From the NCBI RefSeq assembly GCF_003752135.1, contig NZ_RJVK01000001.1, positions 496,001 to 560,000 on the forward strand: a stretch of 64,000 nt of DNA, read 5' to 3'. A program made the translations under genes and the position numbers. The DNA is from Caminibacter pacificus. Its GTDB lineage: Bacteria; Campylobacterota; Campylobacteria; Campylobacterales; Nautiliaceae. The first letter of the stretch is position 1. Each line of letters starts with the position of its first letter. Positions 6,218 through 34,172 of this stretch are shown here, in pieces. The notes below the pieces were generated by a model that saw only the letters and a program-made list of their open reading frames with translations, was not told the DNA's origin and made no database searches.

Positions 6218-6639
6218 TTAAATACCTTGGCTAAAACTGAATCAAACATATAATTAAAAAGCAAATATATTGCTATAAATTTATTAAATGGAAAATAAAC
6301 AAAAGAAAAAAGTAAATAAATTACGAAAATCCCTACGAAATTTTGATATTGCTTATCAATATATGCCGCAATTCTTTCATGAATAAAAAATCTATACACG
6401 AAAAAAATAAATGCCAAATAAATTACCGGATATTTATGTAAAACGGCAAAAAGAGTCAAATAAAAAGCCGCTATAAAGACATTTTCGCAAAAAAAGACAA
6501 ACCCTATTAAAAGCGGAAAAAGATAATTACTGCTATTTAACAATAAAACCGCAATTAAAACTATAAGTTTTATAAATACGTAATAAGCGCTATTTCGTTG
6601 CAATTTGGAAAAAATTTGCATTTTATACAATCCGCCCAT
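6202..6639 (-). CDS. Small polytopic membrane protein of unknown function, upstream of PBP2
   Basis: About 139-145 aa, almost entirely hydrophobic, with around five predicted transmembrane helices. The frame opens at 6639, but the ATG at 6621 is a likely alternative start. It overlaps mrdA by 16 bases and the upstream acetyltransferase gene by 50-70 bases. A membrane protein in this position next to PBP2 recalls MreD of the elongasome, and Helicobacter also has a small unknown gene beside its PBP2 gene; I could not confirm MreD identity from sequence. Function is inferred from context only. Confidence 0.55.
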   Translation of the reverse strand: MGGLYKMQIFSKLQRNSAYYVFIKLIVLIAVLLLNSSNYLFPLLIGFVFFCENVFIAAFYLTLFAVLHKYPVIYLAFIFFVYRFFIHERIAAYIDKQYQNFVGIFVIYLLFSFVYFPFNKFIAIYLLFNYMFDSVLAKVFKCEPK

Positions 6640-7034
6640 ATTTTTTTTTCGGGAATTTCCTCTTTTTGTATTTCATTAAATCCCAATTTTTCAAAAAATT
6701 CTTTTTTATAAGTCAAAACCAAAACCTCTTTTAGTTTTAAAGATTTCGCTTCTTCAAGAAGTGAATTTACAAGCTTTTTTCCAATACCTTGACCTTGATA
6801 TTTCTCATTAACCGCCAAAGAGCGAATTTCTCCCAAAAACGGAGAATAAATATGTAACGCTCCTACGGCTATAGGTTGTTTATCGTCAAAAACAAGCTGA
6901 TAAGAGCGAATATTCATCGCTATTTCGTCTTCGTCTCTATTTAATATTATCCCTTCTTCAACATATGGTTTTAATACTCTTTGAATATCGATTATATTAT
7001 CAAGAGTCGGTTTTACTATCTTTATCATATTCAC
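6570..7034 (-). CDS. argA: GNAT acetyltransferase, probably a short N-acetylglutamate synthase
   Basis: A 154-aa GNAT-fold protein. The acetyl-CoA loop is visible as YQGQGIGKKL (~79-88), preceded by IRSLAVNEKY. The C-terminal block WADCIKCKFFPNC and NEIAL resembles the short ArgA-type N-acetylglutamate synthases of delta/epsilon-type proteobacteria that lack the kinase-like domain, so the first step of arginine synthesis is the likely role. Start at 7034 or at the next ATG, 7028. It overlaps engB by about 30 bases, indicating translational coupling. A different GNAT substrate cannot be excluded. Confidence 0.65.
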   Translation of the reverse strand: MNMIKIVKPTLDNIIDIQRVLKPYVEEGIILNRDEDEIAMNIRSYQLVFDDKQPIAVGALHIYSPFLGEIRSLAVNEKYQGQGIGKKLVNSLLEEAKSLKLKEVLVLTYKKEFFEKLGFNEIQKEEIPEKKIWADCIKCKFFPNCNEIALITYL

Positions 7035-7596
7035 CCCACAATATTTCGTTAATTTTTTTTCTTACTTGGTCTATTCCTCTTTTTTTAAGATTCGAGACAA
7101 AAAGCGCATTAGGATATTTTTGTTTTAATTTTGCAAGTTCGCTTTGTTTTAATTTGTCGATTTTAGTAAAAACAGTGAGCAATTGTTGGTCTTTTCTCAT
7201 AAAAGATTTCAAATACTCATCAACGTTATTATCGATATCCAAATCGGGATGTCTTGCGTCTCTTAGGTGGATGAAAAGTTTGATATTGAATCTGTTTTTC
7301 AAAAACTCATCAAGATTTTTGCCCCAATCTTTAAGCATGGATTTGCTAACTTTCGCATACCCGAATCCAGGCAAATCCACAAGCACGTATTTTTTCCCCT
7401 CGTCTTCCACTTCAAAAAAGTTAATAAGTTTTGTTTTTCCGGGAGTTTGAGAAACTTTGGCTATTTTTTGATTGGTAAAAGTATTTAAAAAGCTGCTTTT
7501 ACCCACATTACTTCTACCAAGCAATGCAACTTCGACGAAATTAGGCTCGATCGCTTCTTTTATCGTAGGCGCCGATTTAATAAACTTCACTTTCAT
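7000..7596 (-). CDS. engB: Ribosome biogenesis GTPase EngB (YihA/YsxC)
   Basis: A 198-aa TRAFAC-class GTPase needed for late assembly of the large ribosomal subunit. G-motifs are all visible: GRSNVGKSSF (G1), TPGKT (G2), DLPGFG (G3) and TKIDKL (G4). Length is typical of the family. The start codon overlaps the stop of lptA by four bases. It belongs to the compact envelope/LPS run, an arrangement also known in Helicobacter. Confidence 0.95.
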   Translation of the reverse strand: MKVKFIKSAPTIKEAIEPNFVEVALLGRSNVGKSSFLNTFTNQKIAKVSQTPGKTKLINFFEVEDEGKKYVLVDLPGFGYAKVSKSMLKDWGKNLDEFLKNRFNIKLFIHLRDARHPDLDIDNNVDEYLKSFMRKDQQLLTVFTKIDKLKQSELAKLKQKYPNALFVSNLKKRGIDQVRKKINEILWGEYDKDSKTDS

Positions 7597-8045
7597 TGAT
7601 TCACCTTTATGATTATATTTACCGGTTTGTTTTTATTTCCTAAAACTTCGATATTTTTTGTAATTCTATTGATTTTAATCCTATCACCGCTAATACTTTC
7701 GTTCGTTTCTATTTTTTTGATAAAAGCGTTTCCGATAAGGAGGATATCTCCTGTTTTTATGTAATAAAAAAGTTTATCGCACTTTCCGCTATACGTAGAA
7801 TTGTTATCCATAGATATTTTAAATTTAACATTGCCAATCGCTTCAATTTTTACCGGTTTTTTATCTTTATTAAAAAACACGGTCAATTTATCGGCGAAAA
7901 TATTATCATTGTCTTTTACAGCTTTTACATTACCGATAAAAACTGAAGTCATTGCTTTTGAGTTATAATAAAACTGCTTACTTGTAATTTTCAATTCGCT
8001 TGCAAATAAGATGACGGTTAATAGTAAAAATATCAATTTTTTCAT
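7593..8045 (-). CDS. lptA: LPS transport periplasmic protein LptA-like (OstA N-terminal domain)
   Basis: A 150-aa protein with a signal peptide (residues 1-15) followed by an OstA/LptA beta-jellyroll repeat pattern (MTSVFIGNVKAVKDND, FADKLTVFFNKD). LptA forms the periplasmic bridge that carries LPS to the outer membrane. It overlaps lptC and engB by four bases each, so it is translationally coupled to its functional partner lptC and follows kdsC of the LPS core pathway. Confidence 0.85.
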   Translation of the reverse strand: MKKLIFLLLTVILFASELKITSKQFYYNSKAMTSVFIGNVKAVKDNDNIFADKLTVFFNKDKKPVKIEAIGNVKFKISMDNNSTYSGKCDKLFYYIKTGDILLIGNAFIKKIETNESISGDRIKINRITKNIEVLGNKNKPVNIIIKVNQ

Positions 8046-8536
8046 TTTTTGACCTTTAAAAAGTATGTAATATCATCGGCTTTTATGTTTTTATTTTTAT
8101 CTACTATGAAATTAACGCCGAATCCCTTAAAACTTTGCGCTTGAAAAGCGAACTTTTCGCCTTTTAATATCGAGGTTTGAGTATTATATATACCCTTGTC
8201 GGTTGTCAGATTATACTCTTTGCTAACGAATTTTACATCCAATCCTTTTAAAACGGGCTTTTTATAAAAGGCTTTTTTTAAAAAAATTTTCTCCTCATTG
8301 CGTAAATTATTCAAAAAAACATCTCTTCCGAAATAATTAGTCTTATTTACTATAAATTCTTTAAACGAACCGCTTTTTGTAAGGTTCGGTTCGTACTCGT
8401 AAAATTTTCCGTTTTTCAATACAACGGGAGGAAGAGAAGTGTTGTATTCTTTTATTTTTTTAAAATTTCTACTCTCGAAAATCGGATATATCATTATACC
8501 CGCCAAAAGTAAAACAAAGATTAATATCTTCACCAT
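8042..8536 (-). CDS. lptC: LPS export protein LptC-like, membrane anchored
   Basis: A 164-aa protein with one N-terminal transmembrane helix (~3-20) and a periplasmic LptC-type beta domain (FVSKEYNLTTDKGIYN pattern). LptC hands LPS from the LptBFG transporter to LptA. Sequence conservation in this family is weak; the call rests on fold pattern, size and position between kdsC and lptA, with overlaps of seven and four bases. Confidence 0.8.
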   Translation of the reverse strand: MVKILIFVLLLAGIMIYPIFESRNFKKIKEYNTSLPPVVLKNGKFYEYEPNLTKSGSFKEFIVNKTNYFGRDVFLNNLRNEEKIFLKKAFYKKPVLKGLDVKFVSKEYNLTTDKGIYNTQTSILKGEKFAFQAQSFKGFGVNFIVDKNKNIKADDITYFLKVKK

Positions 8537-9021
8537 AACGCGATAAATTTATTAAATAGATTTTCTTCTTTTAAAAGTATCTCTATCATCTCGGCAACAG
8601 CTCCCTCTCCTCCTTTTTTCGTAAGAGGATACTCGACATAATCATAAACAAAAGCGCTTGCATCCGCCGGCGCGAATGTTTTGCTAACAAGTCTCATCAT
8701 AGACAAATCGTTCATATCATCACCTATAACAGCTACGTTACAAAAATCAATTCCGAGTTCGTTTATTATCTCTTTTAGCACTTCGGCTTTATTTCTAACT
8801 CCCTGTTTTACATACGTAATATCAAGTTCTTTCGCTCTTCTTTCGACTATTTTTGAAGTTCTACCGGTAATTATCGCACTTTTTTTACCAAGAGTGTTCC
8901 ATGATTTTATCATCAGACCGTCTTTAATATTAAAAGCCTTAATCTCATCACCTTCGTTGGAATAATAAATTTTTCCATCGGTCAATGTCCCGTCGACATC
9001 GATTACGATTAGCTCTATCAT
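8530..9021 (-). CDS. kdsC: 3-deoxy-D-manno-octulosonate 8-phosphate phosphatase KdsC
   Basis: A 163-aa HAD-superfamily phosphatase that dephosphorylates KDO-8-P on the way to LPS. The catalytic DVDGTLTDG motif is at residues 8-16, IITGRTS provides the second motif, and GDDMNDLSMM the acidic third motif. The C2-capless small size is typical. It shares one base with hisB upstream and overlaps lptC downstream; kdsB, the next enzyme in the pathway, is at 44534 in this window. Confidence 0.93.
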   Translation of the reverse strand: MIELIVIDVDGTLTDGKIYYSNEGDEIKAFNIKDGLMIKSWNTLGKKSAIITGRTSKIVERRAKELDITYVKQGVRNKAEVLKEIINELGIDFCNVAVIGDDMNDLSMMRLVSKTFAPADASAFVYDYVEYPLTKKGGEGAVAEMIEILLKEENLFNKFIALW

Positions 9022-9596
9022 TATAAAACTCCCTTAGTCGACGGAATTCCGCTTTCTCTATAGCTTAAAGCTCTTCTTAAAGCGACCGCAAAAGATTTAA
9101 ACGCACTCTCGACAATATGGTGTTTATTCGTACCTCTTTTATAAACTATATGAGCTGCGATTTTGAAATTAAATACAAGAGATTTAAAAAACTCCTCCAC
9201 AAGCTCCAAATCAAACTCTCTAATAGCTCCCTCTCTTGGCATTTCATAAACAAGATAAGGTCTTCCGCCTATATCCAAATCAACCTCAACAGCCGCTTCA
9301 TCCAAAATCGCTACCGCATTTGCAAATCTTTCGATATTTTTGATTGGAAAAACTTCCTCATAAAGAGCTTGCCCAAGAGCTATCCCCACATCTTCTACGG
9401 TATGATGAAAATCGACATCAATATCTCCGTCGCAAAAAATCTCCATATCTATTCCGCTGTGTTTTGCCAAAGTCTCAAGCATATGATCGAAAAAACCAAC
9501 ACCGGTAGATATATTCGCTTTGCCGCTTCCTTGAATATCCACTTTTATTTCAATTTTCGTCTCTTTTGTTTCTCTTTTTATTTCAGTCATTTTCAC
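9021..9596 (-). CDS. hisB: Imidazoleglycerol-phosphate dehydratase HisB
   Basis: A 191-aa single-domain enzyme of histidine synthesis. The two metal-binding histidine motifs, [16 protein letters not shown] and [19 protein letters not shown], define the family. ATG at 9596 or 9590 can serve as start. It lies inside the envelope run between rlpA and kdsC, overlapping rlpA by four bases; a metabolic gene in that place looks inserted compared with the arrangement I recall in Helicobacter. Confidence 0.95.
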
Positions 9597-10276
9597 TCTC
9601 CTACGATAAATCCGTTTATTCCGTGTGATAATTTGAATTTTTTAGCTTCTTGATACGTTTTGAAGCCCGTAATATAAACTTTATAAAGCATATTTCTTTT
9701 TATTACAGCAGTATTATATCCTAATTTTTGGTATTTTTTCGCTACTTTCCAAGCTCCGTTTTTATTCATAAAAGCGCCCACTTGCAGCATATACCCGCTA
9801 ACATAATTTTTACCTTTAAACTTAATCACCGTAATTTTTACAGGAGCCGTTCCCGTAACGTCAAGACCGATTTTTTTTCCGGCCGCATAGCTTAAATCGA
9901 TAATTCTTCCTTTTACAAAAGGTCCTCTGTCGTTTATTCTGACAATAACGCTTTTATGGTTTCTTAGATTGGTGACTTTAACTATCGTATTCATCGGAAG
10001 CGTCTTATGAGCCGCCGTATAAGCGTACATATTATATACTTCGCCGTTACTTGTGTATCTTCCGTGAAAATTAGGCCCGTACCAGCTTGCTATTCCCGTT
10101 TGTGTCCAACCGATAGGAACCCTATTCATAGGATAATACATTTTCCCGTTTACGGAATAAGGTTTTTTCGTGCCTTCTTTTACTCCGGGTACGTTATAAA
10201 CCTCGGTATGATAAGCTTTTTGAGCACATCCCGTAAAAAACACAACCGCCGCTAAAAAAAGTATATTTTTTTTCAT
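9593..10276 (-). CDS. rlpA: RlpA-like septal ring lipoprotein (lytic transglycosylase) with SPOR domain
   Basis: A 227-aa lipoprotein: the signal peptide ends in a lipobox FTGC (~14-17). The central double-psi beta-barrel carries [20 protein letters not shown] and VRINDRGPF, typical of RlpA, and the C-terminus forms a SPOR-like domain ([21 protein letters not shown]). RlpA cleaves denuded glycan strands at the septum. It directly follows mltD, another glycan-cleaving enzyme, with no intergenic space. Confidence 0.92.
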
Positions 10277-11611
10277 TTAATACCTTTGTGGAATTTTTAA
10301 TATTTGTCCTACTCTGATAACGGTTGATTTTAAATCGTTTAATTTCATGATTTTTTTATAAGAAATATTGAATCTTCTTGCAATTCCCGCCAAAGAATCT
10401 CCGTTTCTAACTCTATATTTTACGAATTTGGAATTCATAGGAATTACCAGCCTTTGTCCGACTCTTAAATATCTTCCGAGTCTGTTATAATCTCTGATAT
10501 ATCTTATTTTCGTATCGAATTTACGAGCTATTTTCAGTAAAGTGTCCCCTTTTTTAACTTTATACACGTAAAAAAAGTGTTTCGGTTTAAAATGTTCTTT
10601 GAAATAAGCAATTTTTTTATATGGAATATAAATGTAATATTTATACGGCGGAGTAAATGAATTTTTCAGATGTAAATTATGCTCTCTAAGCTCCTTATAA
10701 CTCATATGCAAAAGTTTTGCAACATAAAAAAGAGACGTACCTCCGGGCACGGTAACCTTATCAAAAGAAGGAGTAACTCCGCTATTTAAAATATAAGAAT
10801 TCGAATATTTTAAAAATTCGTCGTTATTAAATAAAAAAGACATAGCAAGGATTTTTATTATATATTTTCTCGTCTCTTTTGGAAGATATTGCCTTTTTAA
10901 TCCCGGCTGATATCTCAATAAATCATCAAGCGTAATGTGTATATGCGAAAGTTTTTTATATAACTTGTACAGAGGTAAATATGCTCTGCTTCCTTTTTGC
11001 TGATATTCTCTTATTATTTTTCTGTATTTTTTAATATCCGGGTCGTTTTTGCAACTTTTCCCCTCTATTTTGCAAAGTTTATCGACTTTTGCCCTTACAA
11101 CAGCCTCGACTACTCTAGCTTCTCCGGCATTATAAGCCATAATCGCCAAATACCATTTTCCGAAATAGTCATGCAAATATTTAAGATAATCGATTGCGGC
11201 TTGAGTCGATTTGATAGGGTCAAGCCTTTCATCCACATATGAATCTATCCTAAGACCGAATCTCTTAGCGGTTTTTGGCATAAATTGCCAAAGGCCTCTT
11301 GCTCTTTTATGAGATTTTGCATCAAGCATAAAATAACTCTCGGCCATTGCCACGGCAATGAGTTCGGGGGGAATATTTGATTTTTGAATACTTTTTCTGA
11401 TTATCGGCAAAATATCGTATCCGTTTTCAAGTATATTTAGAAAATATCGCTTTTTTCTGTAAGCATACTCTTTGTATTGTTTTTGAAGGGTAGGATTTAA
11501 TAAAAAACTATCTTCAATATTCAAAGCCTCCAAAACATTAATATTCGAATCGTTCACAACATCCGCACGTAAAATTAAAAAAACAAAGAAAATTAAAAAA
11601 AGCTTTTTCAT
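10277..11611 (-). CDS. mltD: Membrane-bound lytic murein transglycosylase D with LysM repeats
   Basis: A 444-aa secreted enzyme: signal peptide at 1-16, SLT domain with catalytic glutamate in AVAMAESYF and the companion motifs RGLWQFMPKTA and AIMAYNAGEARV, then LysM modules at the C-terminus (YKVKKGDTLLKIARKF and YRVRNGDSLAGIARRF) that bind peptidoglycan. It cuts glycan strands to 1,6-anhydro-muropeptides. The start overlaps the end of tatD by four bases. Confidence 0.93.
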   Translation of the reverse strand: MKKLFLIFFVFLILRADVVNDSNINVLEALNIEDSFLLNPTLQKQYKEYAYRKKRYFLNILENGYDILPIIRKSIQKSNIPPELIAVAMAESYFMLDAKSHKRARGLWQFMPKTAKRFGLRIDSYVDERLDPIKSTQAAIDYLKYLHDYFGKWYLAIMAYNAGEARVVEAVVRAKVDKLCKIEGKSCKNDPDIKKYRKIIREYQQKGSRAYLPLYKLYKKLSHIHITLDDLLRYQPGLKRQYLPKETRKYIIKILAMSFLFNNDEFLKYSNSYILNSGVTPSFDKVTVPGGTSLFYVAKLLHMSYKELREHNLHLKNSFTPPYKYYIYIPYKKIAYFKEHFKPKHFFYVYKVKKGDTLLKIARKFDTKIRYIRDYNRLGRYLRVGQRLVIPMNSKFVKYRVRNGDSLAGIARRFNISYKKIMKLNDLKSTVIRVGQILKIPQRY

Positions 11612-12357
11612 ATTTTAAAAAGCCTTTTTGCGTTTTGTGTCGTAATCTCTTCGACTTCTTGAGGAGTAACTCCCCAAAGCTCTGCGATTTTATCTCTTAT
11701 ATAAATAGTATAGTAAGGTTCGTTTCTTTTTCCTCTGTGCGGATGAGGAGTAAGGTACGGCGCGTCCGTTTCTATAATAACCCTGTCTTTTGGAATTTTA
11801 GGAAAAACTTCGAGAAGTTTTCTCGCGTTTTTAAAAGTAATGACTCCGCCTATTCCGTAATAAAATCTATCGCTGAATTTCAAAAGATGATGAGCCGCGT
11901 TATAGCAATGAAAAACACCTTTTATATCCGGATGAGCTTCGATAACTTTTACGCTATCTTCGGTAGCGTCTCTAATATGGACGATGATAGGTTTATTATA
12001 TTCTTTTGCGATTTCTATTTGTCTATGAAAAAGCTCTATTTGTTTTTGGCGTTTTTCGGGCTCTTTTACCCAGTGATAATCAAGCCCTATTTCACCCACC
12101 GCAACACATTTCGGGTGTGTGATAAAGCAAGTAATAAGTTTTTCGTCGTATTTGTCAATATCGACCGGATGAAACCCTACGGCAAAATATACGTCTTCGT
12201 AATTTTGAGCGAGTTCTATCGCTCTTGGCAAATCTTTCGGGTCCGCCGCAGGGATTATAAACTTCTCCACTCCGGCATCTTTGGCACGCCTGATAACCTC
12301 ATCGACATCATCGATAAATTTTTCGTTATCCAAGTGCGTATGAGTATCTATTATCAT
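11608..12357 (-). CDS. tatD: TatD-family metal-dependent hydrolase (DNase)
   Basis: A 249-aa TIM-barrel hydrolase with the metal ligands IDTHTHLD (N-terminus), GEIGLDYHW, HIRDA and ETDAPYLTPHPHRG. TatD enzymes act as Mg-dependent 3'-5' exonucleases or quality-control nucleases. It opens the minus-strand envelope run and faces maeB across a ~100-bp divergent spacer that contains two TGTTACW-type motifs. Confidence 0.93.
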   Translation of the reverse strand: MIIDTHTHLDNEKFIDDVDEVIRRAKDAGVEKFIIPAADPKDLPRAIELAQNYEDVYFAVGFHPVDIDKYDEKLITCFITHPKCVAVGEIGLDYHWVKEPEKRQKQIELFHRQIEIAKEYNKPIIVHIRDATEDSVKVIEAHPDIKGVFHCYNAAHHLLKFSDRFYYGIGGVITFKNARKLLEVFPKIPKDRVIIETDAPYLTPHPHRGKRNEPYYTIYIRDKIAELWGVTPQEVEEITTQNAKRLFKI

Positions 12358-12374
12358 TTATCTCCTTTACTTTT

Positions 12375-12443
12375 AGTAACACTTTTAGGTAAAAAAACTC
12401 CCTATCTTGTAAAGATTCGTAACTTTTAAATATAATTGTAACA
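12375..12443. promoter_or_regulatory. maeB/tatD divergent region: TTGTAA-N18-TATAAT promoter and two TGTTACW motifs
   Basis: TTGTAA (12407-12412) and TATAAT (12431-12436) form a plausible sigma70 promoter for maeB, followed by AAAAGGAG before its ATG. AGTAACA (12375-12381) and TGTAACA (12437-12443) are reverse complements of TGTTACT and TGTTACA, matching the TGTT[AT]C[AT] box described for the campylobacterial regulator HP1021/CemR. Confidence 0.5.
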
Positions 12444-12458
12444 AAAAAAGGAGCTGTA

Positions 12459-13775
12459 ATGGCAAACAAACCTACTTTCACTAAAGAAGAAGCATTAGAA
12501 TACCATGCAAAGCCGGTCCCTGGTAAAATCGCTATCGAAGTAACAAAACCGGTAAGAGATAGTAGAGACTTATCAATCGCTTACTCACCTGGTGTTGCTA
12601 TTCCTTGTCTTGAAATCGACAAAGACGAAGAACTTGCATACACTTACACAAACAAAGCTAACCTTGTAGCTGTAGTATCTGATTCTACTGCGGTATTAGG
12701 ACTTGGTACTCTTAAACCTGTAGCTGGTAAACCTGTTATGGAAGGTAAAGCGGTACTATTCAAAAAATTCGCATTTATCGATGCTTATGACATTATGTTA
12801 AAAGAAAGAGACCCTGACAAAATCGTAGAAATCGTTGAAGCAATTTCTCCGACATTCGGTGGTATCAACCTTGAAGACATTAAAGCGCCTAAATGTTTCG
12901 ACATCGAAAAAAACGCTCAAGCAAGATGTGATATTCCTGTATTCCACGACGACCAACACGGAACTGCTATTATCTCTTCTGCGGCTATTATCAACTGGTG
13001 TAAACTTGAAGGTAAAAAACTTGAAGACCTTAGAGTTGTAGTAATCGGTGCTGGTGCTGCCGGACTTGCAGCGGCTGAAATGTATAAGGCTCTCGGAATC
13101 AAAAATATGGTTCTAACTGATAGTAGAGGTCCTGTAACTACAAAAAGAGACGACCTAAACAAATATAAACAACCTTGGGCGGTTGACGAAGACCTTGAAA
13201 CACTGGCTGACGCACTAAAAGGTGCCGATGTTGTAGTAGGTAACTCAGTAGCGAATTGTATTACTCAAGATATGGTTAAAACACTTGCACCAAACGCACT
13301 ACTTCTAACTCTTGCAAACCCGGATCCTGAAATCAAACCTGAACTTGCTCTGGAAGTAAGACCTGACCTTTACATCGGTACAGGTAGAAGTGACTACCCT
13401 AACCAAGTAAATAACGTTTTAGGATTCCCGTTCATCTTCAGAGGTGCGCTTGATACTCACGCAAAAGCAGTAAATATGGAAATGAAAATCGCAGCTGCTT
13501 ACGCACTTGCCGACCTTGCTGAAAAACCTGTTCCACAATACGTAAAAGACGCTTATGGTGGAGCGGACTTAAAATTTGGAAAAGATTACATCCTTCCAAA
13601 ACCATTCGATAGAAGAGTATTCGTTGACGAATCTGTAGCGGTTGCAAGAGCTGCGCTTGAGAGCGGTGTTGCGAGAATTAAAGTTGATGATATCGATAAA
13701 TGGGTAGAAGGATACAAACAACACCTAATCAATATGCTAAAAGAAAAAGAAGGTATCGATTACGACGCAAAATAA
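12459..13775 (+). CDS. maeB: Malic enzyme (malate dehydrogenase, oxaloacetate-decarboxylating)
   Basis: A 438-aa malic enzyme of the short, MaeB-like type without the C-terminal phosphotransacetylase domain. [13 protein letters not shown] and [11 protein letters not shown] mark the malate/metal site, and [13 protein letters not shown] is the NAD(P)-binding loop. It interconverts malate and pyruvate plus CO2, linking the C4 acids of the carbon cycle to pyruvate. It has its own promoter and a strong ribosome-binding site. Codon choice looks biased (frequent CTT, GGT, GTA), consistent with high expression. Confidence 0.93.
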
Positions 13776-19331: not shown

Positions 19332-20303
19332 TTACTCCCCTATTAAATTCATAATGAGTTTAATTATCAAATCTTTTTCATTCGGATTTGAATGGGCTAT
19401 CAAAAGAGCAAGTGATACAAGAGCGTTGGAATTGATTTTAAGCTCACCGTTTTCATCATACAAATAATTATTTTTACTCAAAAAAAATACGAACATAAAA
19501 GCGCCTATTCTTTTGTTTCCGTCCACAAACGGATGGTCTTTTACAATGTAATAAAACAGATTTGCGGCTTTTTCTTCAATAGTAGGTAATAAATCAACAC
19601 TACCGAATGTCTGGTAAATATTACGGATAATACCTTTAAAGCTGTTTTCCCTTTCCTGTCCGAATAGCTCGGTTGCTTCTTTTTTGTTTATAAGCTCATT
19701 TTTTAATTTTTCTATTTCTCTAACCGCTTCATAATAATCAAGTATAAATTTTGCTTCTTTACCTTTTGGGATTTCGAGTCTATTTTCATCAAATTGATTC
19801 AGTAAAATCCAGCTTTTTGCGTATTTTGTGATAATATCAAGAAATCCTTTTGCCTCAATTTCATTTAAATTTTGCTTAATTGCTTTTTGTAAAAGCTCAA
19901 TTTCCTGCTTAAATTCATTAAAGTTTTGCTCCAACCTTTTTTGATTTAGAGCATATCCTTTTAAAATATAATCTTTCAAAATTTTCGTAGCCCATTGTCT
20001 GAATTTCGTTGCTTTTTTACTGTTTACCCTGTATCCCACCGAGATTATTACGTCAAGATTGTAATATTCAATATTTCTTGAAACTTTTCTGTTTCCTTCC
20101 ATTTTAACTGTTCGGAATTTCCGAACAGTTGATTCTCTGTTTAATTCACCACTTTCAAAAATGTTTTTTAAGTGTTCGCTAATAGTAGATTTTGCAGTTC
20201 CAAAAAGCTCACACATCTGCTTTTGCGTAATCCATACCGTTTCGTTTTCCACTTTTGTCTCAATCTCAATTTCCCCGTCTATAAATTTTACAATATCTTT
20301 CAT
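19332..20303 (-). CDS. RhuM-family protein with C-terminal Doc/Fic domain
   Basis: A 323-aa two-domain protein. Residues ~1-125 match the RhuM/virulence-factor pattern (WITQKQMCELFGTAKSTISEH, then ISVGYRVNSKKATKFRQWA), containing a helix-turn-helix-like start. The C-terminal domain has the Doc-type Fic motif HPFVDGNKRIG (~264-274), with the catalytic histidine and the lysine-containing variant seen in Doc kinases; Fic/Doc enzymes modify proteins by transferring phosphate or AMP. No separate antitoxin gene is adjacent. It lies 89 bp beyond the leader-distal end of the CRISPR array, on the strand the array is transcribed from. Confidence 0.82.
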   Translation of the reverse strand: MKDIVKFIDGEIEIETKVENETVWITQKQMCELFGTAKSTISEHLKNIFESGELNRESTVRKFRTVKMEGNRKVSRNIEYYNLDVIISVGYRVNSKKATKFRQWATKILKDYILKGYALNQKRLEQNFNEFKQEIELLQKAIKQNLNEIEAKGFLDIITKYAKSWILLNQFDENRLEIPKGKEAKFILDYYEAVREIEKLKNELINKKEATELFGQERENSFKGIIRNIYQTFGSVDLLPTIEEKAANLFYYIVKDHPFVDGNKRIGAFMFVFFLSKNNYLYDENGELKINSNALVSLALLIAHSNPNEKDLIIKLIMNLIGE

Positions 20304-20392: not shown

Positions 20393-22264
20393 ATTTCAAT
20401 ACTACAAATGTATCGGTGTTATTAGCACCTCCTCAATTTTTTCTCTTACAATTTCTTTATTTCAATACTCCAAATGTATCGGTGTTATTAAATACACAAA
20501 TAGCGGCAAATCCCTTGCCGTGTTATTTCAATACTCCAAATGTATCGGTGTTATAAAAAATGAGTATGAAAATGACGCACTAAGGGCTATATTTCAATAC
20601 TCCAAATGTATCGGTGTTATTGTTCTAGATGAGTGTCATAATTTTTTGGCTAAAGAATTTCAATACTCCAAATGTATCGGTGTTATTAGACAATCTAAAT
20701 TACCGTTCGGAATCCAAGTTATTATTTCAATACTCCAAATGTATCGGTGTTATTAAATAAGCAAAAAGAAAATGAAACGCTTAAAACATTTCAATACTCC
20801 AAATGTATCGGTGTTATATAGGGAAGAAATTTGTTCGTAGCTCTCTTCAAAATTTCAATACTCCAAATGTATCGGTGTTATGTATTTTTAGTATTAACAA
20901 AAAGCACTAAATGCAAAATTTCAATACTCCAAATGTATCGGTGTTATTTTACCAGAAGGAAGTGTAACATACTTAAAACGAATTTCAATACTCCAAATGT
21001 ATCGGTGTTATTTTTTAAAAATAACTTTACATATGGTAAAAAATTATTTCAATACTCCAAATGTATCGGTGTTATATTTTTAATGATAATTTTGATTTTG
21101 CTTTTTATAATCTATTTCAATACTCCAAATGTATCGGTGTTATGGAAAGGGCATTACTTCTTTTAGCATATGCGTTTAATTTCAATACTCCAAATGTATC
21201 GGTGTTATGTGGTTGAGAAAGAAGAAGTCGAAAGACAGGCGTAATTTCAATACTCCAAATGTATCGGTGTTATCCACAACGGGAAATTCAGGGTGCTTAA
21301 TCTCTTTTTGGATTTCAATACTCCAAATGTATCGGTGTTATTTTTCTCCTGCATTAATTATCTCGACTTCTCCTTCCTATTTCAATACTCCAAATGTATC
21401 GGTGTTATTAAATAAGCAAAAAGAAAATGAAACGCTTAAAACATTTCAATACTCCAAATGTATCGGTGTTATATAGGGAAGAAATTTGTTCGTAGCTCTC
21501 TTCAAAATTTCAATACTCCAAATGTATCGGTGTTATCCGACCCTCTTCGTCAAGTCCAAGCATTTCTAAAATTTCAATACTCCAAATGTATCGGTGTTAT
21601 ATAACACAAGAAGATGTAAAGAGCTGGAGATTTGACTAATTTCAATACTCCAAATGTATCGGTGTTATTGTTACTAAGTATTTAACTAAGTCTTTAGATT
21701 ATAAATTTCAATACTCCAAATGTATCGGTGTTATCTTAAAAAGTACGTTAAAACTGCCTATTCTAAGAATTTCAATACTCCAAATGTATCGGTGTTATCG
21801 ATTGATTTGAGTGAGCTTGACGCTGTTGCTTTATTTCAATACTCCAAATGTATCGGTGTTATTTAAAAGGAGTTAAATTGGAAAAATTAAAATACGAAAA
21901 TTTCAATACTCCAAATGTATCGGTGTTATGCCTTCAAGTTCAGGCTCAACCCCCGTTAGGGAATATATTTCAATACTCCAAATGTATCGGTGTTATCCGA
22001 GCAGACTTTTGAGAAAGAGTTTAAACATAATCTATTTCAATACTCCAAATGTATCGGTGTTATTTGCTCGGGAACAAAGACACGGAAAAACTTATAAAAA
22101 AATTTCAATACTCCAAATGTATCGGTGTTATTACAACCGCAACAGACAAAGTCGAAAACCTTACAGCATTTCAATACTCCAAATGTATCGGTGTTATATA
22201 AAGATATAGCAATACCTCGTAATGCAAGAATTGGATTTCAATACTCCAAATGTATCGGTGTTAT
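20393..22264 (-). CRISPR. CRISPR array, 29 repeats of 30 bp, 28 spacers
   Basis: On the plus strand each repeat begins ATTTCAATACTCC and ends GTATCGGTGTTAT (30 bp); spacers are 34-38 bp. The reverse complement ends in ATTGAAAT, the expected 8-nt crRNA 5' handle, so the array is transcribed on the minus strand from the leader at 22265-22416. The leftmost repeat (20393-20422) carries one substitution (C to A at its twelfth base), as expected at the old, leader-distal end. Two adjacent spacers (20754-20787, 20818-20851) occur again identically at 21409-21442 and 21473-21506, leaving 26 distinct spacers. Reading frames across the array only translate the repeat. Confidence 0.99.
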
Positions 22265-22416: not shown

Positions 22417-23704
<1,288 letters not shown>

Positions 23705-23708
<4 letters not shown>

Positions 23709-24700
23709 ATTTTAACCTTAAAATTTTCTTTTTCAATTTTAAAAATATAATCATCAACCTCCAAAAAGTAATAATAATCCCCTTCTAAAATATTACAAAG
23801 CTTTACTTCATCATCTTTAATAAACAAATCGATTTTAGAGTTTATTATCTTGGCATTAACATTGCATTCAAACCCCTCTTTTAATAAAAATGGAATATTG
23901 TTTATCAAAGCTACATTTTTATTTCCAATATTTACAATTTCAAACGTATCAATATGCTTTAGGTCCTGTTTGGTTTTATATAAAAAACAATCTTCAATCT
24001 TTTTTGAATAAAACGCTTTTAAATTAAATTCATAATGCACGGAATAAATTTCTTCATATAACAAATCCAAAATGACATTTATTTTTGTTTCTATAGATGT
24101 GTTTTCATCATAAATAGAAACTGGTATTTTCGTTTTTAGATTTTCTTTTTTGGCTAAATAAATTAACTCGTCAATATCAAATTTTTCCAATTCAAAAAGA
24201 TATTTTTCCAACCCTCCGAGAAAATATTTCAAATCTTTATATTTATCAAACAAAAGCTTTATTATTTCATATTGACTTAAATCTTTACCGATTAATTTTC
24301 TTACAGCATCTATAACACTAAAACTTTCGCACTCTTTTTCATTGTACTTATCCGAATATGCGTAAAGCATAAAAGTTTTATAAATTTCACTGACAAATTT
24401 TTCCTTACTGAGTCGTTTTTCAAAAATAAGCTCATCATCGTCAAAAATTTTTAAAACATACCTGTCATCATAATAAAAGTAAGGTTTAGAATAAAAAAAT
24501 TCAAATCTTTTTTCATTTCCTTCCTCATCTATTTCAAAAGTAATATTTTCACAGCCGCAAATTAATTTTTCAAGAGATTCTTTTATTTCAAACAAAGGAT
24601 TATACGCAAAAGAAATATAAATTTTAATATCGTTTATATAAAACTCAATCCAGCCGTATTCACATTTCTTTATATATGCTTTAAAATCACTCATCATCAC
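23705..24700 (-). CDS. Unknown 331-aa protein embedded between cas4 and cas1
   Basis: I do not recognise this protein. It is acidic and soluble. The first ~110 residues form a beta-rich unit (WIEFYINDIKIYISFAYNP, later LKIFDDDELIFEKRLSKEKF) whose pattern faintly recalls small immunity-type domains; the middle (~120-235) is helical and the C-terminus beta-rich. It begins ATGATGATG, overlapping the membrane-protein gene by 14 bases, and overlaps cas1 by four. It is therefore produced together with the adaptation proteins. It is not a Cas8, Cas7, Cas5 or Csn-type protein as far as can be seen. A role as CRISPR accessory factor is inferred from position only. Confidence 0.6.
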
Positions 24701-24953
24701 TCCCGATTATCCATCCAATTCCAAGCCCAATTAAAATCCCCGCCAAAAGTCCACTTTTTGTTTTTTCATCAATATTTGAAACTTTTTCTTCTAATCCACT
24801 TACAAATACAAACAGTAATTTAAAAAATCCTAAAAAAATAAAAACAACTATCAAATTTGCAAAAAAAATTTCTATAAAACTTTTTCTTTCAAAATAATAA
24901 AATATTCCGCTAAATACTAAACTTAAAAATATTACGTTAAAAATAAACCTCAT
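24687..24953 (-). CDS. Small two- to three-helix membrane protein in the cas operon
   Basis: An 88-aa protein: hydrophobic helices at ~4-20 and ~28-52, a short charged linker (EEKVSNIDEKTK), then a glycine-zipper-like C-terminal helix LLAGILIGLGIGWIIG (~69-84) and an acidic tail. GxxxG-type helices often oligomerise in membranes. CAGGAG precedes the ATG. It overlaps the next gene by 14 bases and lies 63 bp after cas4. No family recognised; it could anchor the 331-aa partner or form a membrane-acting effector. Confidence 0.6.
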   Translation of the reverse strand: MRFIFNVIFLSLVFSGIFYYFERKSFIEIFFANLIVVFIFLGFFKLLFVFVSGLEEKVSNIDEKTKSGLLAGILIGLGIGWIIGSDDE

Positions 24954-25016: not shown

Positions 25017-25502
25017 TTACAAAAAACAGTATTCATAATATGCACACTTCCTGCATTTGCCCTCAAACTTCGGCTTTAGAGGTGTATCACTTCTTAAAAT
25101 TTTCTCAATATCATCTAAAATCTCAAGAAGTTTCATCTCATTTTCCTCAGTCAGTTCTATAACGAACCTCTTTTTATCCTGCTTGTTTTTCTCAAACACC
25201 TCCAAACGACCTTTTTTCTCGACACCTTTTTGCTTTAAAATATAAAGGTAATATAAAAGCTGCCACTTTCCAGCCTCTATGTCACTGTCTGACTTTTTAA
25301 CCTCAACCACATAATCTTTTGTAATTTTATCTACCTTAATCCCCTCGAAACTCACCTCATCTACTTTTGTTTCGCTTATTTCGTGTAAAACTTTCCCGAT
25401 TCTAACATCTTCGCTGTTGTCTTCAAGGTTGATTTTGTGGTAATGCAACCACATCTGGGTTTTGCAGTGGAAATAATAGTTTACAATTGTACCTGTAATC
25501 AT
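25017..25502 (-). CDS. cas4: CRISPR-associated exonuclease Cas4
   Basis: A 161-aa RecB-like nuclease that trims prespacers and checks the PAM. An early cysteine (YYFHCKTQ) plus the C-terminal cluster CRKCAYYEYC bind an iron-sulfur cluster; GIKVDKI and YVVEVKKSD carry the catalytic Asp and the ExK motif, followed by the conserved Gln (GKWQLLYYLY). Its start overlaps cas3 by four bases. Confidence 0.94.
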   Translation of the reverse strand: MITGTIVNYYFHCKTQMWLHYHKINLEDNSEDVRIGKVLHEISETKVDEVSFEGIKVDKITKDYVVEVKKSDSDIEAGKWQLLYYLYILKQKGVEKKGRLEVFEKNKQDKKRFVIELTEENEMKLLEILDDIEKILRSDTPLKPKFEGKCRKCAYYEYCFL

Positions 25503-27775
25503 AAAAATATCCCTTTCTGATACTCACCAAAAGCCTTTCTATCAAATTTAAGTTCATCATCTACAAACTCTTCATAGTCCTTAATCAAATATATCCCGCC
25601 AACTAAATCATTATACTTTTTGATATCCACATAAGAATAAACATTAAAAGTAAAAAACTGCATAAGCGACATAACCTGAGATAATACGATTTTTCTTTTT
25701 GCGTAATTTTCTATTTCGTTAGCTTCTTTATACGCTTCCCATACCTTACACCCGTCAAGCATACCGTCAGTTAAAAATTCATCTTTAACCTCAATATCAA
25801 ATTCACTAATATCAATATTAAAAGACAGGAAAATCGTATGAGTTTTGACATTGATAAGTTTCATCTCTTTCCTCACCCATTCAAAATCAAGATTTATAAC
25901 TTTACTTTTAAAAATTTCAATTTCGCTTTTTGTGGATTTAATTTTTTCTTTTTCTTTCTTCAGTGCATCAAGTACGTCAATATAATATTTCTCATACTCT
26001 TTTCTCAAAAACACTTCTTTATAACTCTTTATAGAAAATCCAAGCCTAATATCACCTCTGTAAATATCCGCCTCTTTGTCCATATCAAAAAAATAAACTT
26101 TTGAATTTTTCTTTGCATTCCTATTAACCCGCCCGATAAACTGCTCTTCGCTCTCAAGCAAACTTATATCTTTAAGCCCCAAATCCATATCAATATCCAC
26201 CCCCGCCTCAATCACCTGAGTTGAAATTAAAAGGATTCTTGCCTCACTTTTACATCTTTTGATAACTTTTTCGCGGTAAAGTTTATTGTCATCACCTGTT
26301 AAAAGATAAACTTCATAACCATCAGTATCTTTCATATACTCATAAAACTCTTTTGCCCTATCTTTTTTTATAAATTCAACCAAAACTTTTTGTTTGTTTT
26401 CACTTAGTATCACTTCTTCAATATCTTCAAAATTTATTTCTTTATCAAGCAAAGAAAAATCAACCTCAACCCTGTCTTTAAATACCGGATGTTTAAGATA
26501 CCCACTCCCAAGCAAATCAACAAACCTCTTTTCATTCAGTAGCCTATCAAGCCTTGGTAAAGTCGCGGACATTATGATAAGTTTAAACCCGATTATTTTG
26601 CTATAAACATTCAACATCTTAACCATATACCACCACTTATCGACATTGTAGCTTTGTATCTCATCAAGAATCACAACACTGCCCGCAAGCTGCCAAAAAG
26701 GAAAATTCTCTTCTTTCCCCACCCCAAACAAAAGCTCAAAAAAATTAACGTGAGTTGTCAAAATAAATGGATAATGATAAAAGGCTCTATTTAGATATGC
26801 TATCTCATACTGCCTTATATCACTTTCATCAAACTCAATAGGAGTAGTTGAGTTTATCACCACTACATCATCAAAAATCTCCTTAAACACTCCCGCCGTC
26901 TGCTCCACAAGCGTATTAAAAGGAAAAACATAAAAAATCTTTTTCGGCTCAAACTGCAAAGCCAAATTCATACTCATAAGAGTTTTCCCGGCACCTGTTG
27001 GGGCATTAAGATAGAAGATATTTTTATCAAGGTTTTGAAGCAGTTTTTCTTCGCTTTTTTTATACATCTCCCGCCTGATTTTATTAAGCTCTCCTTCAAA
27101 CTTATCCATATTTTTAATTACTTCATATTCGTAAAACTTTTCTTTCTCCCTAAACTCTCCAAAATTATCAACCTCAATTTCTGCCATGTACTCTAAAGTA
27201 GCATAATAATCCGCACTTATAAGTATGCTGTAAATAAGCTTCATTACAACATAAAACTCAATCCCAAAATAGATATCAACACTTTGATATTGAAGAATAC
27301 CTTTTAAATCAAATTCATCCGAAAAATCATCAACAAACTTCTCAAACTCCCCTAACTTTGAATGGTGCTTTGATATTACGTAACTTAATCCAAGCAAAAA
27401 ATAAAATTTCTTATAAAACTCATTATCATCTACTTCCTTATCCACCTTATCAAAATACTTCTCAAAAAATATCTTAGCCGACAGATACGAATGCTTCGTA
27501 TCCCCTTTGTCCGTAACTAAATCTTTAAAATCTTTGTTTTTCATAATGTAATACTGAAAATTCGGATTTCTTTTTCCTTCATCGTGCATTACCACAGCAT
27601 CAATTATCATCTGCTTAACTAACTCTTTATCTTCTATCCCTAAACTATCAATAACCCTATCCAAATCCACCTTCTGCAAAATCTTATCAAGGTATTTTTG
27701 GGTAAGTTTTTTATGGTCTTTAAGAAGCTCAGGTGGTTTTTGGTGGTGGATGTGGGAAAAAAAAGAAAAAAACAT
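25499..27775 (-). CDS. cas3: Cas3 nuclease-helicase (HD domain plus DExD/H helicase)
   Basis: A 758-aa protein that unwinds and shreds target DNA recruited by Cascade. HD nuclease residues are seen at H64-D65 (VVMHDEGKRNPN), HSYLSAK and SKHHSK. Helicase motifs: APTGAGKT (257-264), DEIQ (370-373), SAT (402-404) and QFIGRVNRNAK towards the C-terminus. The start follows the SIR2 gene stop by a single base (TAATATG), so Cas3 translation depends on ribosomes coming from that gene. cas4 overlaps its end. Confidence 0.95.
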   Translation of the reverse strand: MFFSFFSHIHHQKPPELLKDHKKLTQKYLDKILQKVDLDRVIDSLGIEDKELVKQMIIDAVVMHDEGKRNPNFQYYIMKNKDFKDLVTDKGDTKHSYLSAKIFFEKYFDKVDKEVDDNEFYKKFYFLLGLSYVISKHHSKLGEFEKFVDDFSDEFDLKGILQYQSVDIYFGIEFYVVMKLIYSILISADYYATLEYMAEIEVDNFGEFREKEKFYEYEVIKNMDKFEGELNKIRREMYKKSEEKLLQNLDKNIFYLNAPTGAGKTLMSMNLALQFEPKKIFYVFPFNTLVEQTAGVFKEIFDDVVVINSTTPIEFDESDIRQYEIAYLNRAFYHYPFILTTHVNFFELLFGVGKEENFPFWQLAGSVVILDEIQSYNVDKWWYMVKMLNVYSKIIGFKLIIMSATLPRLDRLLNEKRFVDLLGSGYLKHPVFKDRVEVDFSLLDKEINFEDIEEVILSENKQKVLVEFIKKDRAKEFYEYMKDTDGYEVYLLTGDDNKLYREKVIKRCKSEARILLISTQVIEAGVDIDMDLGLKDISLLESEEQFIGRVNRNAKKNSKVYFFDMDKEADIYRGDIRLGFSIKSYKEVFLRKEYEKYYIDVLDALKKEKEKIKSTKSEIEIFKSKVINLDFEWVRKEMKLINVKTHTIFLSFNIDISEFDIEVKDEFLTDGMLDGCKVWEAYKEANEIENYAKRKIVLSQVMSLMQFFTFNVYSYVDIKKYNDLVGGIYLIKDYEEFVDDELKFDRKAFGEYQKGIFL

Positions 27776-27776
27776 A

Positions 27777-30160
27777 TTATAATAATCGTTCTTTATCTAA
27801 TATGTATCTTAATGCATTCTCGCATTTACTATATTCATTGCACATTATATACAAATCAGATGCATCTTGCTTTATTTTTAATATATCATTATATATATTT
27901 CGTACAATGTCTAAAAATTGTCTTTTATCATTTTTTGCAAATAACCTAAATTTTTCTTTATATAGATTTTTATAAGTAGCAATATGTTTTACACTATATC
28001 TATCTAATTTAGTAGTTAATAAACTATTCGCTTTTTGAAAATAATCAAAAATTTTTTTACCATTATTTTCTTGTAAAGCAAATAATAAATATAATCTTGC
28101 CTGCTGATTATCAATATATGAAAAATCATATTTTGAACTTTTTAATGCATAAGCAGTATCTAATTTTTGTTGTGCACTTTGTAAATTTTTATTTGCCATT
28201 TCTGCCATTGCATACTGTAACCAATAATGAGGTTCATTTTTCAACCATTGCAATTTATCTTTCGATTTTAATTTTTCAAAATATTGTTTTAAAAATATTT
28301 TTTTATGTTCTTTTGGAATTATTTGTTCTATAAAGTGAAATCTTAATAATTCTCTTTCAATTTTTTGCCAAAACACATCGTATTTTTTATAATCTTGTGC
28401 TTTTTCAACAATTTTTAACAAAATCTCTTTAATAAAAGAATAAGTAAAATAATTTGAAATTATAAATTTTGATAATAATGAAGAATTAATTTTAAAATCT
28501 TTGCCAAAAAGTTCATTAAAACTTATATTCATAATTACATCATTTCCTGAAACTTCTTCTACTAAACTTTTTGTAATTTCTACATCTATTAAATTTAAAA
28601 GTAAGATTGCAAAAAAAGTTTCTTTTAAATTTTTTTCTTTAATAAAAGGTTTTACCAAGCTTTCAATTTCTTTTTTTATTTGCTCAGATTCAAAAATATC
28701 GAGTAATAATAAAGAAAATTGTTTATAATACTCTTGAATTATTTTATTTTTAATAACCCTTTTATTGTTACTATATTTCCCCCATATTCCAATATGAAAT
28801 AATATTTCTATAATTTTTTCTATTTCTCGCTCAGTTAACATATCTAAATTAAACTCATAAAATTTTAAATCATTAAAATTATTTTCTATAAAATGATTGT
28901 GATTTGAAGTTCTATCACTCAAAATCACTTTAATTTTTTCAGAATTATATATTTTTAAATAATTTAATAAATCAACATTATCACAATATCTATCAATAAA
29001 AATTATAGATTGGTTTTGAAGATTATTAATTAATTCAATATCATTTTTAAAATCAAGCTCATAATCAATTAATTCAAAAACGTTATAACCGTTTTTATAT
29101 ATGTAATATTTTAATTCTTCCATAAAGATGCTCTTCCCATTGCCAAATTCAGAATAAATAAAAACAAAATTATATTCATTAATTTTTTCAATAACTTTTT
29201 CTACTATATTTCTTTTTACAACATAATATTTATTAGGATTATTTAAAGACTCAATTAATTTATTTTTATCCAACAATCCTCTTGTAAATAAATAATCGAT
29301 ATCTTTATCTTTTATTTCTATATTTGAGTTTATATCTATCTCATATTTCTTAAAAACTTGTAAATCATTTTTTGATTTATTTGGTGCAACACTTTTTAAT
29401 ATTTTTGAAAAATCTTTTATTCCAATATTGATAATTTTTCCATATTTTTTATATTTAAAAGCTTCTTTTTCTTTTAAATCTGTTTTCGTTATAAAATAAG
29501 TTTTTTCTTTAAAAGGATTATTATATAATAATTTTTTAATTTCAATATCATATAATGAGTAACCAACAAAGATTATTGCATTACTCGCTTCTAAATCCTT
29601 TTTAAATGAATACCACCATTTTGATCTTTCAAAACTATCTGGTTCCAAATATGAATTTTCAGACAATTTAAATGATTTATCAAAATTATTTTCATTAAGA
29701 TTTTTTATATATCCATTGATATGAACACATATATTCAAAAATTTAAAATAATTTTCAGGGGAAGTTTCTGCATCGATAGATTTTCTGTTAATAGACAAAC
29801 AATTTGACACTTGTTCTATAACATCATCATAGTTTGTAGTATATATTCTTCTAAAATTAAATTTTAAAATCTCTTTTAAAATTGGGTCAAATTTTTTTGT
29901 TTTAAAAATCTCTTCCAAAAAAGATATTAATTCATTTTTTGATGATTTTTCTAAAAATTTTTCAACTGCATAAAACAAATCTCCATCAGCTTCAAAATTA
30001 TTTTTTTTGGCAATTTTATCTGCTAACTCTCTTCCAGTAGGCATAGGTTCATTTAATAAATTTGTTGCAAAAGTCGAAAAACCTGCTCCAATAAAAAGTA
30101 AAGAATTACCCTGTGATATTAATATTTTTAATTTTTCAAGATCATTTTCTGTATAATAAT

Positions 30161-30164
<4 letters not shown>
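27777..30164 (-). CDS. SIR2-STAND-TPR protein inserted in the type I-B cas operon
   Basis: A 795-aa protein with three parts. Residues ~10-260 are a SIR2 domain: IGAGFS (25-30), TTNYDD with N111, HINGY with H148, and FVGYSLYD (199-206); the Asn/His pair matches the NAD-cleaving residues of Thoeris ThsA-type SIR2 proteins. Residues ~320-470 form a P-loop NTPase with SEFGNGKS (338-345), SIIFID (386-391) and a SDRTS sensor-like arginine. The C-terminus is helical and TPR-like (~640-760). This order matches SIR2-STAND defence proteins such as Avs5. It overlaps cas5 by four bases and is one base from cas3. Composition is visibly more AT-rich than the housekeeping genes. Function in NAD depletion on phage sensing is inferred. 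Confidence 0.85.
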
Positions 30165-33407
<3,243 letters not shown>

Positions 33408-33473: not shown

Positions 33474-34172
33474 TTAACTTAATGTTTTATATACGCAAAA
33501 ACCGCCTCCTACCGAGCTGTTTTTGTGTCCGAGGCCGGTAGCCAAAGCAGTAAAGGCAAGCTTTTGAGATTCTTCGTCATCTCGGGGTTTTATCTCAAGT
33601 TTGTATCCGAAAAATTTGGCTCCTTTATAGGTAAATGTTTGAGGTTTTTGGTTTTTGATTTGCAGGTATTCTATAAAATTATTCTCAGGCTTTATTTTTT
33701 TATTAAAAGTCGTTTCGTATTTTCGGATAAGGTTGTCTTGTAGGGCTGAGAGAAGTGTAGTAATATCTCCGCTTTTTTCAAAAGTCCAAAACAATCCGTT
33801 TTCTTTCATTACTACAAAAACCGGATTTTGAGTGAATATTTCTTTTATATGTTTTTGAGGCACGACCTTAAAATCGACACCTTTTATCTTAAAAATATTA
33901 TCTTCGTATAAAAAAAGAGACTTTGCAATTTTTTGAGCGAGGTCTTCTTTGAACGTTCTGAAATAAAAAACTTTATCACCTTGATAAATTCCCTTTTCAT
34001 CTGCTCTTCCCATATTTGAAAAGATGTAATTTTTTGGCTTTTTTTCATTGTGCTCTGTATATCCGGAGTTTATAAGGGCTGTAGCTATCAGCTTCGAGAG
34101 GGCTTCAGGAGATTTTCTAAAGTGAATAGGAGCTTTTAGATTTGTTTTTATTTTTAGCTCGTAAAAATGCAT
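33474..34172 (-). CDS. cas6: Cas6 pre-crRNA endoribonuclease, first gene of the cas operon
   Basis: A 232-aa Cas6: the N-terminal strand YELKIKTNLKAPIHFRKSPE and the C-terminal glycine-rich loop ATGLGHKNSSVGGGF define the family. It opens the cas operon; AAGGAAAG and an upstream TATAAT (34196-34201) are in place. The paralog at 17895-18560 keeps the same architecture (KPVHFQYAPE, GCGLGHKNKEVGGGF) but differs at many positions. Confidence 0.93.
   Translation of the reverse strand: MHFYELKIKTNLKAPIHFRKSPEALSKLIATALINSGYTEHNEKKPKNYIFSNMGRADEKGIYQGDKVFYFRTFKEDLAQKIAKSLFLYEDNIFKIKGVDFKVVPQKHIKEIFTQNPVFVVMKENGLFWTFEKSGDITTLLSALQDNLIRKYETTFNKKIKPENNFIEYLQIKNQKPQTFTYKGAKFFGYKLEIKPRDDEESQKLAFTALATGLGHKNSSVGGGFCVYKTLS

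Follow-up and report, generated by a model that had tools for sequence, protein, structure and literature searches.

The gene lying between cas5 and cas3 in the type I-B operon of Caminibacter pacificus is intact and encodes an Avs5 related to EfAvs5; it was probably gained horizontally, occupies an exchangeable slot of the operon, is co-expressed with the cas genes and works as a stand-alone Avs5. The gene was analysed in a stretch of 64,000 nucleotides (referred to here as the window). The type I-B system of this operon is complete (cas6b, cas8b, cas7b, cas5b, cas3b, cas4b, cas1b, cas2b and an array) and follows the order cas6-cas8b-cas7-cas5-[Avs5]-cas3-cas4-[88 aa, 331 aa]-cas1-cas2, followed by the array (Table 1). 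The Avs5 open reading frame contains no internal stop. Its start overlaps the stop of cas5 by four bases (ATGA) and a single spacer base (27776) separates it from the start of cas3, which bears out the exact coupling reported by the first-pass annotation. A promoter-like match (27915-27888) is found within the Avs5 gene, a little before cas3, and speaks somewhat against the favoured reading given below, although AT-rich DNA often yields matches of this kind.

The strand of the array was inferred from a cas2-proximal promoter-like match. Among its 28 spacers 26 are distinct, and a block containing two spacers is exactly duplicated (20723-20881 and 21378-21536). No family and no clear relative were found for the pair of 88 and 331 residues at the cas4-cas1 joint; the 88-residue ORF is hydrophobic and a single weak partial match to this cargo (E 8.5e-4) was obtained in 100 relatives. 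Beside the distal end of the array, an ORF of 323 residues (19332-20303, minus strand) has, by eye, a RhuM/Fic-type look.

Table 1. Features of the window and cargo found at the cas joints of related type I-B operons.
Feature	Locus	Position	Strand	Basis or detail
Avs5 gene (SIR2-STAND-helical repeat, 795 aa)	window	27777..30164	-	ORF, Pfam, sequence and fold match
SIR2 domain, residues about 1-260	window	29385..30164	-	Pfam, motifs, AlphaFold2 model
Asn111 codon	window	29832-29834	-	in SIR2 domain
His148 codon	window	29721-29723	-	in SIR2 domain
STAND NTPase region, residues about 286-480	window	28725..29309	-	Pfam, conservation, model
P-loop GNGKS, residues 341-345	window	29130-29144	-	in STAND NTPase region
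All-helical C-terminal region, residues 481-795, presumed sensor	window	27780..28724	-	AlphaFold2 model; sensor role by Avs5 homology
Ribosome-binding-like sequence GAGAAAGGGATAGA	window	30165..30178	-	cas5 end, directly 5' of Avs5 start
cas6b	window	33474..34172	-	
cas8b	window	31758..33407	-	
cas7b	window	30877..31761	-	
cas5b	window	30161..30880	-	
cas3b	window	25499..27775	-	
cas4b	window	25017..25502	-	
Second low-GC cargo	window	23705..24953	-	cas4-cas1 joint; ORFs of 88 aa (24687-24953) and 331 aa (23705-24700)
cas1b	window	22713..23708	-	
cas2b	window	22417..22716	-	
CRISPR array	window	20393..22264	-	29 repeats of 30 nt, 28 spacers of 34-38 nt
UG13a defence reverse transcriptase	L124	cas5-cas3		E 3.5e-207
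Type I methylase, HsdS-like subunit, unassigned ORF, AAA-TOPRIM ATPase	L127	cas5-cas3		
778-aa protein	L128	cas5-cas3		SEC-C motif, weak NERD match
ParE-type toxin and small partner	L170	cas5-cas3		
GmrSD gene	L125	after cas5, at contig end		E 1.8e-23; left out of the 5/25 count
PtuA-like ATPase and small partner	L129	cas8b-cas7, 3956-6159		
PtuA-like ATPase and small partner	L131	cas8b-cas7, 3807-5956		
PtuA-like ATPase and small partner	L170	cas8b-cas7, 6218-8375		
DUF1016/PDC-S02 nuclease	L124, L125	other joints		
Fic	L130, L131	other joints		
Metallo-beta-lactamase fold protein	L128	other joint		
Nucleotidyltransferase pair	L133	other joint		
PIN	L124	other joint		
PemK	L178	other joint		
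GNAT	L171	other joint		
Bro-N gene, about 270 aa	L132	directly 3' of cas3, 8805-9617		
Bro-N gene, about 270 aa	L179	directly 3' of cas3, 9676-10494		
Bro-N gene, about 270 aa	L180	directly 3' of cas3, 9567-10379		

The SIR2-STAND make-up proposed by the first-pass annotation is confirmed by a SIR2_2 match above the Pfam cut-off (E 1e-7), by a conserved P-loop and by the fold match to Avs5; the nSTAND3 match (E 5e-5) lies under the curated cut-off. The motifs that had been named (IGAGFS, N111, H148 and the P-loop) were all recovered at their positions: GAGFS corresponds to the residues 26-30, TTNYD to the residues 109-113, which include Asn111, and His148 is included in an HxNG stretch. Concerning the TPR-like repeats that had also been described, their helical nature stands, as AlphaFold confidently models the C-terminal part with helices only, whereas no TPR family was called by Pfam.

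A phmmer search of Protein Data Bank sequences aligned the protein with EfAvs5 (PDB 9jap) over the residues 6-756 with an E-value of 4e-102, and this full-length match excludes a chance resemblance. An AlphaFold2 model built from 50 homologues (mean pLDDT 90) was compared with known structures by Foldseek. The top rank was again 9jap, "Helical structure of EfAvs5(SIR2-STAND)" (E 1.8e-48), so that the likeness to Avs5 expected earlier was recovered both by sequence and by fold; the AVAST5 filament 9nc9 (E 1.6e-17), SAMD9 and DSR2 came next. TM-scores remained low, with 0.36 for 9jap, perhaps reflecting a differing domain arrangement between a single predicted chain and a filament. The models of PADLOC-DB 2.0.0 gave no Avs5 match for the protein, which we attribute to a limit of the library because plasmid homologues close to EfAvs5 are missed too. 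Judged on its sequence, the protein is an Avs5 of the EfAvs5 group, with a SIR2_2 domain carrying the NAD-binding and catalytic motifs, a P-loop STAND NTPase and a helical C-terminus.

EfAvs5 (AVAST type 5; Wang et al. 2025, cited in PMC12700824) shares the SIR2-STAND-helical repeat organisation over nearly its full length. In contrast to the Caminibacter gene, EfAvs5 stands alone. The Caminibacter protein is about 32% identical to that of L008, a plasmid relative resembling 9jap. PaAvs5-1 likewise combines SIR2_2, nSTAND3 and a repeat C-terminus, with the catalytic Asn in TTNxD; in that protein NG replaces the usual HG motif, whereas the Caminibacter Avs5 has a His at that place (PMC12931631). 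PaAvs5-1 senses the jumbo-phage protein JADA, and Avs5 enzymes are triggered by a phage protein, hydrolyse NAD and depend for defence on the catalytic Asn of TTNxD and on the NTPase (PMC12931631). Their activity is stated to be conditional on filament formation (PMC12700824).

When 84,980 genomes (GTDB) were scanned with a sequence pattern, 127 relatives were detected, and 79 of their loci were retained for analysis. The first-pass annotation had made its reading depend on the conservation of the catalytic Asn and His, and these residues are kept: Asn111 is present in 78/78 homologues and His148 in 76/78, while the GK of the P-loop is found in 78/78. Asn111, Tyr112, Asp113, Gly201, Asp206, Gly343, Lys344, Trp648 and Gln650 are invariant in the 78 homologues. 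The closest homologue displays 37% identity and the Caminibacter protein forms a long branch in the tree, where its neighbours are two Campylobacterota homologues (modest support, 84).

The base composition points to a foreign origin, as do the long branch and the 37% identity. The GC content of the Avs5 gene is 20.3% (GC3 11.4%), against 33.9% for cas5 and 32.1% for cas3, and this difference supports a horizontal and recent acquisition. A sharp GC shift at gene boundaries would also be produced by an assembly or binning chimera; the boundaries, however, coincide with exact gene ends, the contig measures 700 kb and the genome is 99.99% complete. As both junctions keep the ORFs intact and relatives bear other cargo at the same joint, a chimera is extremely improbable.

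The genomic setting of the homologues in the GTDB loci was searched by tblastn with the cas proteins of the window and with profiles of cas1 to cas8 from related operons. No cas gene was found near the homologues in the 79 GTDB loci (0/79) nor in seven plasmid loci (0/7), and no CRISPR-like array was detected in the 79 loci. One weak cas3-like match in L061 is included in a long open frame that was taken for another helicase. In the seven plasmid loci that were opened, the gene of the Avs5 family stands by itself, and insertion sequences or further plasmid genes are frequently close by. No full-length homologue of Avs5 occurs in 200 relatives, and 397 genomes of the phylum contain only three substantial homologues, all from one genus and none beside cas genes. 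The order cas5-SIR2-cas3 was found nowhere else in these two sets, and Avs5 in the cas5-cas3 slot is thus known from a single genome. No homologue was present in phage records, nor was any recovered when viral contigs were scanned with a pattern from a single protein. In three genomes of one Campylobacterota genus (L135-L137), an Avs5-like gene lies in the same stand-alone neighbourhood; one of these copies has an internal stop and another is split.

These results bear on the dedicated guard or effector advanced by the first-pass annotation, in which the STAND part watches Cascade/Cas3 and triggers NAD loss if CRISPR is inhibited, or in which target recognition activates the protein. The cas5-cas3 position with its start/stop coupling and the intact active sites agree with such a role, and CreTA shows that type I CRISPR systems can be protected by a killing module (PMC10097628, PMC8730458), in that case too a module that stops growth and resides at a cas locus. 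CreTA, however, consists of a toxin and an antitoxin made of RNA, under repression by Cascade, and no such repeat was found at the Avs5 gene: the best repeat-like match in a search for a CreTA-like degenerate repeat-spacer nearby was within chance (crude test), and CreTA-type control of Avs5 was set aside on that basis. Recurrent linkage to cas genes, the mark of a CRISPR-dependent accessory effector, is absent from the homologues, which lie outside cas operons in all 79 GTDB and seven plasmid loci, a distribution that the first-pass annotation had itself named as contrary to its reading. Near relatives carry unrelated modules at the same joint, leaving position as the one argument for a guard, and the low GC implies a recent arrival. 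The functional link to Cas3/Cascade drawn from position and coupling is therefore not supported, and a dedicated guard is distinctly unlikely. Because the homologues lie outside cas operons, the Avs5 family is not tied to CRISPR in general, and its occurrence in this operon is a local event; an interaction peculiar to these particular Cas proteins would be compatible with the single-genome distribution.

The joint itself was examined in 27 loci, consisting of the window and 26 further I-B operons or part-operons of the phylum, in which every joint was parsed. The ORFs were called mechanically and the cargo roles were assigned by family names. Since the operons were picked by similarity to the cas genes of the window, the following occupancies hold for this lineage and not for type I-B at large. 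In 16/27 loci, window included, one or more additional ORFs lie between cas genes. The occupied joints are cas5-cas3 (5/25), cas8-cas7 (5/27), cas7-cas5 (4/27), cas3-cas4 (5/21), cas6-cas8 (3/26) and cas4-cas1 (2/20), while cas1-cas2 is always free (0/19). Tight start/stop overlaps occur with cargo of all sorts, so the coupling reflects the slot and not the partner.

Several loci deserve a separate description. L124 carries four cargoes in one operon (5584-13127), namely the DUF1016 nuclease, the UG13a reverse transcriptase, a PIN module and a 179-residue ORF. Two of the Septu-like pairs of L129, L131 and L170 include weak endonuclease-type matches. The Bro-N genes after cas3 are a recurrent cargo in three operons and have no obvious defence role. 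L130 (1333-16581) has a tandem pair of class 1 effector cassettes, with a second cas6, a 559-residue ORF, a DevR/Csa2-like cas7, cas5 and cas3 between the first cas3 and cas4. Matches of some cargo to the PADLOC models "ATPase_I-A" and "ATPase-Toprim_I-B", which we take to be retron subtypes and not CRISPR subtypes, were not counted as evidence.

In a tree of Cas8b, Cas7 and Cas5, the window groups with L124, L125, L127 and L128 (support 0.993), and L126 is their sister. Among these six nearest operons, five have cargo behind cas5 (the window, L124, L125, L127 and L128), a different one in each case; in L126, cas5 and cas3 overlap with nothing between them. No further operon of the same kind with a readable joint was found in the two whole families concerned (22 and 21 genomes). 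The recurrent pattern is thus cas5-[different cargo]-cas3 instead of the repeated cas5-SIR2-cas3 that had been expected. L124 and L125 share 90% identity in Cas8/7/5 and a common cas7-cas5 cargo, and differ by the gene after cas5. Along cas5 their DNA identity, taken per 60 bases, is 82-97% as far as GAGGGGAAAGGGGT, a ribosome-binding-like stretch before the cas5 stop whose counterpart in the window is GAGAAAGGGATAGA, and then falls to background; L127 lacks such a stretch at its cas5 end. As the identity ends at this point, cargo appears to be swapped just behind the translation signal borne by cas5, on the evidence of a few operons.

The same survey bears on a neutral passenger, landed by chance in a permissive joint, whose placement has no selected effect and which, if it defends at all, does so like any Avs5. 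Single occurrence and foreign GC agree with it, as does the varied cargo of the cas joints, including Bro-N genes without clear defence role. Defence and toxin-antitoxin families nevertheless dominate the cargo, the insertions left the cas genes intact and tightly coupled, and one small clade uses the same joint five times; we consider a mere passenger unlikely.

In the favoured reading, that of a stand-alone Avs5 in an exchangeable slot, the gene would be translated from the ribosome-binding-like sequence at the cas5 end and expressed together with Cascade and Cas3, gaining the cas promoter and translational coupling. Most economically, the protein would keep its own trigger and effector and act independently of the Cas proteins: the helical C-terminus would sense a phage protein, the STAND NTPase would assemble, probably into filaments, and the SIR2 domain would hydrolyse NAD. 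The link to CRISPR would then consist of shared expression and layered defence, in which CRISPR deals with known phages by cutting their DNA and those that escape are stopped by Avs5. With low probability, the joint could moreover be a selected plug-in site, where modules are recombined behind the ribosome-binding-like sequence of cas5 and, because their level is tied to Cascade and Cas3, serve as back-up when CRISPR interference fails.

No earlier description of such exchangeable slots at cas joints was found in the open-licence literature. Altae-Tran et al. 2023 (PMC10910872) link toxin-antitoxin and other genes to cas loci and name a SIR2 domain in a figure legend; no account was found in its main text of genes for Avs5, Septu, reverse transcriptase and restriction replacing one another at a single cas joint. 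A tight coupling to a cas gene is no proof of a CRISPR-dependent function. The Caminibacter operon brings adaptive (CRISPR) and innate (Avs5) immunity within one tight operon and, with its relatives, points to a recurrent and exchangeable defence slot in the cas operons of Campylobacterota, the operon resembling a rack of swappable immune modules. If this is general, cas joints would be places to find new defence genes, and the question of layered versus fail-safe immunity through shared expression would become directly askable.
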